37,091 bases of DNA from Akkermansia muciniphila (GTDB lineage: Bacteria > Verrucomicrobiota > Verrucomicrobiia > Verrucomicrobiales > Akkermansiaceae). Both the position numbers and the translations under genes were made by a program. Location: assembly GCA_945890645.1 (NCBI GenBank), contig CAMDCV010000039.1:1-37091 (forward strand). The letters run 5' to 3'. Shown piece by piece: positions 27,929 to 29,787 of this stretch. The notes below the pieces were generated by a model. It saw nothing but the letters and a program-made list of their open reading frames with translations, searched no databases and was not told the origin of the DNA. Every line of letters starts with the position of its first letter. The stretch's first letter is position 1.

Positions 27929-27942
27929 TGTTCGACAGAACA
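27929..27942. promoter_or_regulatory. LexA operator (SOS box) TGTTC-N4-GAACA upstream of lexA
   Basis: TGTTCGACAGAACA is a palindrome with 5-bp arms around a 4-bp spacer, ending 12 bp before the lexA start. From memory, the LexA of Verrucomicrobia recognises TGTTC-N4-GAACA, which is neither the E. coli CTG-N10-CAG nor the Bacillus GAAC-N4-GTTC form exactly. The position fits autoregulation. Confidence 0.8.
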
Positions 27943-28012: not shown

Positions 28013-28441
28013 ATGATTACTGATTTTAAATCGTGGCTTCAAGAAGTGCTGGCTGAATTTTCCTGTCAAACTGGCACCATCCATCGCAGCACTGCCGAGG
28101 GCACACACCTCACACTAGTGACACAGATCGGCGTGCCCGAAGCTTTGTTGGATAAAATTTCGCTCATTCCCTTCGGTAAAGGAATCGCGGGAGCGGCCGC
28201 CGAACGTCGTGCACCGGTGGAACTGTGCAATCTGCAGCAAGACCTTGGTGGTGTTGCTCGTCCTGATGCGCGTCAGACGAACGTGTCAGGTTCACTGGCG
28301 GTGCCTATTTTTTCCACCGATGGCGAAAAAGTGTTAGGAGTGCTCGGTATAGGCATGATGGCGCCGCATGATTTTACTTGCGAGGAACAACAAGCCCTAG
28401 CGGAGAAAACCATGCCGTTGCGAGAAGAATTCGAACGCTGA
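28013..28441 (+). CDS. GAF-domain protein
   Basis: A 142-residue protein that is essentially one GAF domain. It shows the pattern of bacterial stand-alone GAF proteins: TGTIHRSTAEGTHLTLVTQIG, PFGKGIAGAAAERRAPVELCNLQ (the helix-turn region of the fold), GSLAVPIFSTDGEKVLGVLGIG. GAF domains bind small molecules such as cyclic nucleotides or sense redox state; the ligand here is unknown. The protein has no effector domain, so it may work as a subunit or redox sensor; methionine-(R)-sulfoxide reductase-type GAF proteins are also small, but their active-site cysteines are not apparent. It is the first of four same-strand genes spaced by 38, 4 and 26 bp, probably one operon, and it is divergent from lexA. 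Confidence 0.8.
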   Translation: MITDFKSWLQEVLAEFSCQTGTIHRSTAEGTHLTLVTQIGVPEALLDKISLIPFGKGIAGAAAERRAPVELCNLQQDLGGVARPDARQTNVSGSLAVPIFSTDGEKVLGVLGIGMMAPHDFTCEEQQALAEKTMPLREEFER

Positions 28442-28479: not shown

Positions 28480-28935
28480 ATGAAACCTGAAGATGCCGCA
28501 AAAAAAGTGCTCGATACGATGCTCGGACACCTTGGTTTCACTGCAACCATTGAACTCGAGCACGACGAGGAAGGGCCATGTTTGCAAATTTCCACGGCAC
28601 AGCCCGAGCTACTGATTGGGGATGAAGGTGATCGCCTCGATGACTTGCAGTACTTGGTAAATCGACTATTGCGCAAGCACTATGAGGAAGCCCCGCGTAT
28701 CAAAGTGGACTGCTCGCATTTCCGTCGCATTCAAGAAGACAAATTACGCACGGAGGTGAAGCAGCTCGCCGAGAAAGTCAAAGGCAGCGGGAAGCCCTTT
28801 CAAATGCGTCCGCTCAATGCGTATTACCGTCGTCTGGTCTATCAAGCCGTGCTCGATGATCCGCAAATCGAGGCTCACTCTCCCGATGGCACTAGCCGAT
28901 TAAAACGAATCACGCTTAGTCTAAAATCGAACTAA
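28480..28935 (+). CDS. Jag/KhpB-like KH-R3H protein with altered signature motifs
   Basis: A 151-residue protein with the order of Jag/KhpB (KH then R3H) but no Jag-N domain. The KH part spans about residues 20-95 and contains LLIGDEGDRLDDLQYLVNRLL, which matches the Jag pattern LIGxxGxTLDALQYL. The GxxG loop is Gly47-Asp-Glu-Gly50, with two acidic residues where RNA-binding KH domains normally have basic or small ones. The R3H part contains NAYYRRLVYQAVLDDP, where the expected R-x3-H is Arg117-x3-Tyr121. The fold is clear, but RNA binding in the usual way is doubtful. KhpB normally acts with KhpA in RNA regulation. Typical neighbours rpmH, rnpA and yidC are absent here. Confidence 0.8.
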   Translation: MKPEDAAKKVLDTMLGHLGFTATIELEHDEEGPCLQISTAQPELLIGDEGDRLDDLQYLVNRLLRKHYEEAPRIKVDCSHFRRIQEDKLRTEVKQLAEKVKGSGKPFQMRPLNAYYRRLVYQAVLDDPQIEAHSPDGTSRLKRITLSLKSN

Positions 28936-28939
28936 ATCT

Positions 28940-29392
28940 ATGAAAAAATGGCTCTTTAGTAATGCTACGATAGACCCCATGATTTCGGTCGCTTTACTGA
29001 TTCTTCGTGTCAGTATTGGGGCGATGATGATTGGGCTACACGGGTGGGAGAAATACCAAAATTTCGCGCAGAAAAAGGATTCCTTTCCTGTGCCGAGCAC
29101 TTTCCTTCTCAACTCATGGATGAACTCCACGACCAGTTTAGTCTGCACAATTTTTGCGGAAGTCGTTTGTAGCGCGCTGTTGATTGTAGGTTTTGCGACT
29201 CGCCCTGCTGCCGCGGTGTTGGCTTTTACAATGGGAATCGCTGCTTTTGTTGTGCTCAAAACGCAGCCGATGGCAGGCAAGGAATTGGCGCTGATGTACC
29301 TCACGGCCGCAGTCGTATTACTCTTTACAGGAGCAGGTGCCTATTCATTTGATGCGCGATTTTCCATCGTCAAAAAGCGCATGTTCAGTTAA
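28940..29392 (+). CDS. DoxX-family membrane protein
   Basis: A 150-residue membrane protein with four hydrophobic helices: about residues 17-38, 68-90, 95-115 and 120-138. The motif in the first helix region, LILRVSIGAMMIGLHGWEKYQNF, matches the DoxX pattern of a GxxFxxHGxxK loop after the first membrane segment. The middle PAAAVLAFTMGIAAFVVLK also fits. DoxX proteins are implicated in thiosulfate:quinone oxidoreductases and in oxidative-stress complexes, but most members are uncharacterised. It starts 4 bp after the preceding stop, so translation is probably coupled to the Jag-like gene. Confidence 0.85.
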   Translation: MKKWLFSNATIDPMISVALLILRVSIGAMMIGLHGWEKYQNFAQKKDSFPVPSTFLLNSWMNSTTSLVCTIFAEVVCSALLIVGFATRPAAAVLAFTMGIAAFVVLKTQPMAGKELALMYLTAAVVLLFTGAGAYSFDARFSIVKKRMFS

Positions 29393-29418: not shown

Positions 29419-29787
29419 ATGCAAACGCAACGTCTTGTCCTCCCCGCAGATCTGAATCAATACGGTTTTCTTTTCGGGGGTCGTTTGCTGGCTTGGGTCG
29501 ATGAAGCTTCGTGGATTGCGGCAAGTTTGGAGTTTCCGCAGTGTCGCTTTGTCACGATCGCTATGGATGATGTACAATTTCACCACAGTGTACGCGAAGG
29601 CACCATTCTCACGATTGATTCGCGGTTGCAAAAAACGGGCAATACTTCCGTGACTTACACCGTGCAAGTCATCGATACACGGCGCAGTCTGGAAGAAGTT
29701 CTCTTTGCTACTACGGTGACCTTTGTCAATGTGGACGAACAAGGGAAGAAACAAGCCATCGCGCCACTTTCCAAGTGCCAAGCCTGA
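29419..29787 (+). CDS. Acyl-CoA thioesterase (hotdog fold, YciA-like)
   Basis: A 122-residue single hotdog domain. The N-terminal signature LNQYGFLFGGRLLAWVDEAS (about residues 12-31) corresponds to NxxGxLFGGxLxxWMDEAA of the YciA/BFIT thioesterases. Asn13 and Asp28 are in the catalytic positions. The following FVTIAMDDVQFHHSVREGTIL matches the conserved substrate-site strand. The enzymes hydrolyse acyl-CoA to free acid and CoA; chain-length preference cannot be read here. It is the last gene of the probable GAF-jag-doxX-thioesterase operon. The convergent E2 gene ends 45 bp away. Confidence 0.9.
   Translation: MQTQRLVLPADLNQYGFLFGGRLLAWVDEASWIAASLEFPQCRFVTIAMDDVQFHHSVREGTILTIDSRLQKTGNTSVTYTVQVIDTRRSLEEVLFATTVTFVNVDEQGKKQAIAPLSKCQA

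Follow-up and report, generated by a model that had tools for sequence, protein, structure and literature searches.

A clade-wide acidic KH loop in the KhpB protein of Akkermansia and a possible asymmetric KhpA-KhpB pair

In Streptococcus pneumoniae, KhpA pairs with EloR by contacting its KH domain, third helix against third helix, with I61 of KhpA lying against L239 of the EloR KH domain; when KhpA is docked as a homodimer, the two GxxG loops face opposite directions (PMC6403258). According to the same report, a GDDG change abolishes RNA binding and pneumococcal elongation control requires each of the pair's three RNA-binding domains, the KhpB KH domain included; its authors leave open whether all three bind the same RNA strand (PMC6403258). 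Acidity of the loop does not necessarily eliminate binding: in the IMP1 KH1-KH2 tandem, GDDG in KH2 reduced affinity by a factor of only about two for the RNAs examined (PMC11997328). An N-terminal Jag_N domain has also been named as a characteristic of KhpB (PMC10117718). Here we analyse a khpB gene of Akkermansia muciniphila in a stretch of 37,091 nucleotides (the window), which is contig C39 of a 3.82 Mb assembly of 66 contigs with an estimated completeness of 97.55%.

The khpB reading frame (Table 1) is open from ATG to stop, and translation of its 151 codons confirms the two features that the original prediction had singled out, namely a Gly-Asp-Glu-Gly sequence in the KH loop (LLIGDEGDRLDDLQYLVNRLL; G47 D48 E49 G50) and a tyrosine in place of the R3H histidine (NAYYRRLVYQAV; R117, R118 and Tyr121 in the segment R117-R118-L-V-Y121). 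Both GxxG glycines are present, and GDEG has none of the basic residues of which a canonical RNA-binding KH loop carries at least one; the R3H signature likewise reads R117-x3-Y121 in place of R-x3-H. At the profile level, the R3H domain is recognized above the Pfam cut-off (E 1.1e-6, 28.9 bits against 26.8), and the KH domain falls below that of KH_KhpA-B (PF13083; 19.1 bits against 32.1), a threshold also missed, with 28.3 and 30.4 bits, by two homologues that carry both the histidine and a basic loop (G147 and G191). The NCBIfam Jag_EloR family (NF041568) is matched at E 3.5e-21 with 76.1 bits, below a cut-off of 145 bits that is exceeded by just 3 of 14 well-known control genomes. Pfam searches up to E 1 returned no Jag_N match in the protein, which begins at the KH domain.

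Table 1. Coordinates of khpB, its domains and signature residues, and the neighbouring genes in the window
Feature	Position	Strand	Basis and remarks
khpB (short Jag/EloR type: KH type II + R3H)	28480..28935	+	151 aa; ORF, domain and fold matches
KH domain, ~residues 3-76	28486..28707	+	predicted secondary structure; weak PF13083 match at residues 9-75
GxxG loop (GDEG), residues 47-50	28618..28629	+	translation; variability in 139 family homologues
Arg52	28633..28635	+	R/K in 139/139 alignable family homologues; candidate to take the place of the basic loop residue
R3H domain, residues 91-135 of Pfam match	28750..28884	+	Pfam
R3H signature R117-x3-Y121	28828..28842	+	His in 118/140 homologues
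GAF-domain gene, directly upstream of khpB	28013..28441	+	Pfam; neighbour survey
DoxX-family gene, directly downstream of khpB	28940..29392	+	near khpB only in g1, g7 and g13 among family loci
4HBT thioesterase gene	29419..29787	+	neighbour retained with khpB from the yidC-linked arrangement

Despite the sub-cut-off Pfam score, the AlphaFold2 model of KhpB, computed from six sequences (mean pLDDT 83.9, pTM 0.67), is predicted to adopt the KH type II fold, with a first helix (residues 3-17), two strands (22-29 and 32-39), a short helix (42-45), the loop and a further helix (52-67) in the helix-strand-strand-helix-loop-helix order of that class, followed by the R3H domain. Its top match among solved structures is the RNA-bound Thermus KhpB/EloR (9lri; Z 13.4, 149 residues at rmsd 6.8), with further matches to 9lrg (Z 12.8) and 3gku (Z 12.5, 145 residues at rmsd 9.5). 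Taken by itself, the R3H half resembles PARN (Z 8.5) and, more weakly, the R3H domain of Smubp-2 (Z 6.7). As the two-domain superposition on solved KhpB structures is loose (rmsd 6.8-9.5), the arrangement of the domains is only provisional. The earlier expectation of an intact scaffold is borne out. Among own-genus pairs, the 23 of 45 with usable dS give a median dN/dS of 0.066 for khpB, at a median dS (1.85) that is near saturation.

To place the loop in its family context, we used 147 matched KhpB loci, which after removal of six repeats (L004, L007-L011) yielded 141 proteins from 140 genomes, G122 contributing two. The tree has 140 rows, as the protein of G060, truncated by a contig end, was omitted; loop counts refer to 139 homologues, two proteins of genus g5 without an alignable GxxG being excluded there and kept in the tree counts (genera are numbered with g, the own genus being g1, and families outside with f). 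G47 and G50 are invariant in all 139, and the first variable residue is K in 62, R in 26, D in 15, N in 12, G in 8, E in 7, H in 6, Q in 2 and A in 1, that is, basic (K/R) in 88. Loops without any basic residue number 49, of which 41 contain an acid and 16 two acids, and seven loops read GDEG. Two genera are fixed for the acidic, non-basic type: all ten own-genus loops are non-basic with an acid (GDDG in four, GDEG in two, and GEEG, GEDG, GNEG and GHEG in one each), as are all 19 of g3 (at least one acid), while g7 carries GKDG (13), GRDG (3), GKEG (1) and GRNG (1), the first variable residue is basic in 19/19 g9 proteins, g13 is mixed and most other genera read G[KR]xG. The acidic, non-basic loop is found together with Tyr121 in 10/10 own-genus genomes and is therefore not a slip of a single genome. 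The refuting outcome foreseen at the outset, namely close homologues with a canonical loop and histidine, is half borne out: most of the other genera have predominantly G[KR]xG with His, and the own genus does not.

On the tree, which was built from 148 columns and has poor support at 53 of its 134 inner branches, a net-negative loop requires at least nine changes and g3 falls outside the clade of g1, g7 and g13 (SH-aLRT 96); repeated origins of loop acidity are therefore most likely. The 14 changes inferred at the two loop sites within g1 and g3 include none that restores a basic residue. Over the 140 rows, sites 48 and 49 have undergone 38 and 32 inferred changes, and by genus-weighted variability they stand 44th and 10th among the 151 sites; judged from the alignment, the x residues of GxxG are a fast-changing site. 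Among 33 sequences from outside the family, read where the locus was given, 10 of 12 f4 proteins have a G[RK]RG loop, and the loop is variable in f2, f3 and f6; a basic residue is lacking in six of the 33, and two acids occur together in none. We also observed KhpB proteins that depart from GxxG itself: in two g5 genomes of 1.5-1.6 Mb (L151 in G017 and L152 in G004), KhpB has no alignable GxxG and carries Tyr at 121, and a search of both genomes gave no KhpA match; outside the family, the second loop glycine is missing in L244, L245, L247 and L249 (f32), L216 (f3) and L237 (f15), with loops reading GRTA, GRTS, GEHA or GRRE.

At site 121 of the R3H domain, 118 of the 140 homologues have His and the other 22 have Tyr, with eight inferred changes on the tree. 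A change from His to Tyr is one of several single-base changes open to a His codon. That Tyr is the sole alternative although other single-base changes are possible suggests that Tyr121 is a conservative swap and that the tyrosine does the same job as the histidine. Among the basic residues, R117, R118, R140 and K142 are invariant in 140/140 homologues, and R73 and R82 in 141/141. The two alterations are also separable: proteins with Tyr121 occur with basic loops (GKHG, GRNG, GKKG), and all 19 g3 proteins combine an acidic loop with His. In raw counts, Tyr is more frequent in acidic-loop proteins (13 of 41) than in the remainder that can be scored at site 121 (9 of 99), and 10 of those 13 belong to the own genus. 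A coupled loss of the loop's basic character and the histidine was considered and set aside, since only four independent pairs are available on the tree, too few to show a link; over these pairs (starred branches) Tyr changes in the same direction and in the opposite direction averaged 0.1 and 0.4, respectively. Neither did charge elsewhere in the protein follow the acidic loop in any clear pattern when compared by genus only: the net charge of the KH domain outside the loop is -4.4 in g1, -5.2 in g3, -8.1 in g16, -6.2 in g9 and -1.3 in g7, and that of the R3H domain is +5.1 in g1, +3.7 in g3, +5.0 in g14, +4.1 in g10 and +3.4 in g12, yet in the last three genera the loops are mostly basic or neutral. 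The proposal that the two altered RNA-contact signatures mean a loss of the usual RNA binding is not supported, given the restriction of site 121 to His and Tyr, the invariant R117, R118, R140 and K142, and the separability of the two changes. A functionally altered KhpB KH loop is plausible, which does not imply that the protein as a whole has ceased to bind RNA.

As originally noted, khpB lies away from rnpA and yidC, and no jag is seen in the rpmH-rnpA-yidD-yidC-secA run of the own genome (yidC identified by Pfam, the other genes by eye). Protein and family-model searches of the 97.55% complete assembly returned no second KhpB/Jag; a KH match on another contig (G000:C7) was considered as one and rejected, as it corresponds to KhpA. 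KhpB is found in 140 of 145 family genomes, in single copy in 139 and in two copies only in G122 (8% contamination), and is absent from the matches in G018, G102, G126, G139 and G142; 53 of 57 order-level and 78 of 145 phylum-level genomes also matched, both samples including family members. We then surveyed the neighbours of khpB over approximately 1.5 or 3 kb on each side, less at contig ends. The yidC gene is nearby in 15 of 16 g16 loci (15 genomes) and one of two g8 loci, with both rnpA and yidD near khpB in 13/16 g16 and 1/2 g8 loci, and the order rnpA-yidD-yidC-khpB-4HBT is seen in L065 and L060; outside the family, yidC is near khpB in 24 of 33 loci. The 4HBT thioesterase gene accompanies khpB in the absence of yidC from the stretch in g9 (19/19), g10 (11/11), g12 (13/14), g14 (1/1) and g15 (1/1), a thioesterase gene is near khpB in one of four g11 loci, and it is again nearby in the own genus (10/10), g7 (18/18) and g13 (19/20). 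These last three genera share a DoxX gene near khpB in 48/48 loci, placed between khpB and 4HBT in the displayed loci that have both, and a GAF gene upstream (10/10 in g1, 18/18 in g7 and 13/20 in g13). In g2, g3, g4, g5 and g6, none of the yidC-side, 4HBT, DoxX or GAF neighbours occurs in the stretch around khpB. The stepwise gene order from g16 and g8 through g9, g10 and g12 to g1, g7 and g13, together with the sequence tree, points to the window gene being, most simply, the yidC-linked jag/khpB of its relatives, which would have moved along with the thioesterase gene, and thus accounts for its location away from yidC.

The same region holds a perfect TGTTC-N4-GAACA palindrome at 27929-27942, between the divergent lexA and GAF-khpB-DoxX-4HBT genes. 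It is the single match in the window, against 0.03 expected, and the motif recurs in the khpB loci of four other own-genus genomes (G010, G051, G059 and G088). We presume that it may be a LexA box, in which case the khpB run could be under SOS control in those genomes.

The KhpA protein of the same genome comprises 97 residues, with a GRNG loop and a PF13083 score of 49.4 bits. KhpA was found in 130 of 145 family genomes, 104 of the 109 of good quality included, and was not found in the other 15, five of them of good quality. Its sequence was read in 69 of the 130 and is G[RK]xG throughout, with a basic first residue in 69/69 (GRNG in 55, GKNG in 7, GRGG in 3, GRQG in 2, GRAG in 1 and GRSG in 1). 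Where both proteins were read, the KhpB loop carries no basic residue in 38 of 68 genomes. Two further observations concern KhpA-like sequences. In 13 g7 and g13 genomes (G061, locus L204 on G061:C13, and G013, G039, G048, G053, G064, G107, G113, G116, G119, G124, G128 and G134), a second KhpA-like match lies inside an open frame of greater length. The one from G061, which alone was read, is a C-terminal KH domain with a GREG loop in a protein of approximately 200 residues, whose N-terminal part has no Pfam match up to E 1. Two g3 KhpA matches (G028:C1:2860191-2860463 and G084:C16:6863-7117) each contain one TGA inside the aligned stretch.

We propose, at a probability of roughly 0.4, that KhpB works as a heterodimer with KhpA in which the two subunits contribute unequally, RNA being held by the KhpA KH domain and the KhpB R3H domain. 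The KhpB KH domain would then serve mainly as a dimer partner, packed on KhpA via the helix that follows the loop, while the intact GRNG loop of KhpA would hold the RNA backbone and the R3H face of KhpB (R117, R118, R140 and K142, with Tyr121 replacing the histidine) would provide the second grip. The acidic KhpB loop may weaken or divert the phosphate contact on its own side, resulting in an asymmetric hold on the RNA. In favour of such an asymmetric pair, the KhpA loop is uniformly basic while more than half of the paired KhpB loops are not, and KhpB retains both loop glycines, its R3H basic set and a low dN/dS (all as above). The contact between the two proteins was demonstrated in another phylum, in pneumococcus, and is here presumed. 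The proposal is weakened by the pneumococcal requirement for all three domains (PMC6403258), the KH domain of KhpB among them, and by the invariably basic residue 52, which could replace the loop residue and leave the KhpB KH domain still binding; the merely twofold effect of GDDG on the RNAs examined in IMP1 (PMC11997328), the 15 genomes in which KhpA was not found and the loose two-domain superposition also count against it.

The main rival, rather unlikely in our estimation, builds on that residue: the KhpB KH domain would still bind RNA, the basic side chain having shifted to position 52, two residues past the second glycine, and the loop x residues being free to vary. R or K occupies position 52 in all 139 alignable family homologues; outside the family, a basic residue 52 accompanies 0 of 13 loops with two basic residues, 4 of 14 that have a single one and 4 of the 6 that have none, and Helicobacter pylori HP1451 likewise reads GEKGYR. 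These counts, however, track common descent and could stem from one or two events, and two of the six outside loops without a basic residue also lack a basic 52. Moreover, R52 is equally present with basic loops and is therefore not specific to acidic ones, and the 14 inferred g1 and g3 loop changes never restored a basic residue, where free variation predicts otherwise.

We consider it unlikely, if slightly less so than what follows, that the KhpB loop has been kept acidic by selection in at least two lineages (the own genus and g3) and that the KhpA-KhpB pair would then have turned into a one-sided RNA clamp, in which the acidic loop would either exclude RNA from one face or dock a protein partner. 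Relaxed constraint on loop residues that are unneeded in the family and drifting would fit the high variability and numerous inferred changes of sites 48 and 49; it appears quite unlikely in view of the steady loop character (29/29 acidic and non-basic loops in g1 and g3 taken together, 19/19 with a basic first residue in g9), g13 being mixed, and of the invariance of both glycines. Of similarly low probability, and placed last among the readings that retain some weight, the acidic KH surface could be a docking site for a protein, by analogy with HP1451 on the VirB11 ATPase HP0525. The model does match the HP1451-HP0525 complex (2pt7; Foldseek E 2.1e-5, profile E 0.0028; superposition Z 8.0), and all 29 loops of g1 and g3 have stayed acid-bearing and free of basic residues through their turnover, as if the charge were retained; on the other hand, the R3H basic set is invariant, and HP1451, a distant match, itself carries a Glu and a Lys in the loop. 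Finally, the reading as a paralogue, whether regulatory, as suggested earlier, or decaying, with a canonical Jag encoded at another place in the genome, to which the altered signatures and unusual location had lent some appeal, is rejected as highly improbable, as no second copy was seen at the yidC run or elsewhere in the 97.55% complete genome, the family is single-copy in 139 of 145 genomes and the gene order of relatives points to the yidC-linked orthologue.

Our literature search returned no paper that joins Akkermansia and KhpB and none on 9lri, and the Jag, R3H and KH-domain papers it covered made no mention of Verrucomicrobia. What remains, as read from the sequences, is the clade-wide occurrence of an acidic-loop KhpB alongside a KhpA with a non-acidic loop. 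Own-genus KhpB thus offers a natural experiment on which domains of the KhpA-KhpB pair grip RNA: a GDDG-type loop occurs naturally in one of the three domains with the other two kept, which provides ready-made test variants. It also cautions that loop sequence alone is insufficient for calling KH proteins 'dead'.

Compared with the Firmicutes KhpB/Jag/EloR proteins (NF041568; 3gku), the window protein shares the fold, a type II KH domain followed by R3H, the presence of KhpA in the genome and, in many relatives, adjacency to yidC; it differs in having no detected Jag_N and a Jag_EloR score well short of the family cut-off, and where 3gku has GKRG and His, it has GDEG and Tyr and is encoded away from yidC. 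The Thermus thermophilus KhpB/EloR (9lrg, and 9lri with RNA) provides, in 9lri, the best structural match, at 18% sequence identity and with a GKEG loop and the R3H histidine. HP1451 (2pt7), an inhibitor of the Cag VirB11 ATPase HP0525, aligns across its two domains in Foldseek as well as VIA-align and is, by its entry title, a protein of the same fold that acts on a protein; identity is, however, 21%, the rmsd is 9.7 over 141 residues, and nothing ties the window protein to a VirB11-type ATPase. Last, KH1 of KHNYN, which has lost RNA contact, resembles the KhpB domain in keeping the KH fold with a non-canonical GxxG loop, but there the motif itself has been lost (PMC11997328), whereas the window KhpB keeps both of its glycines.
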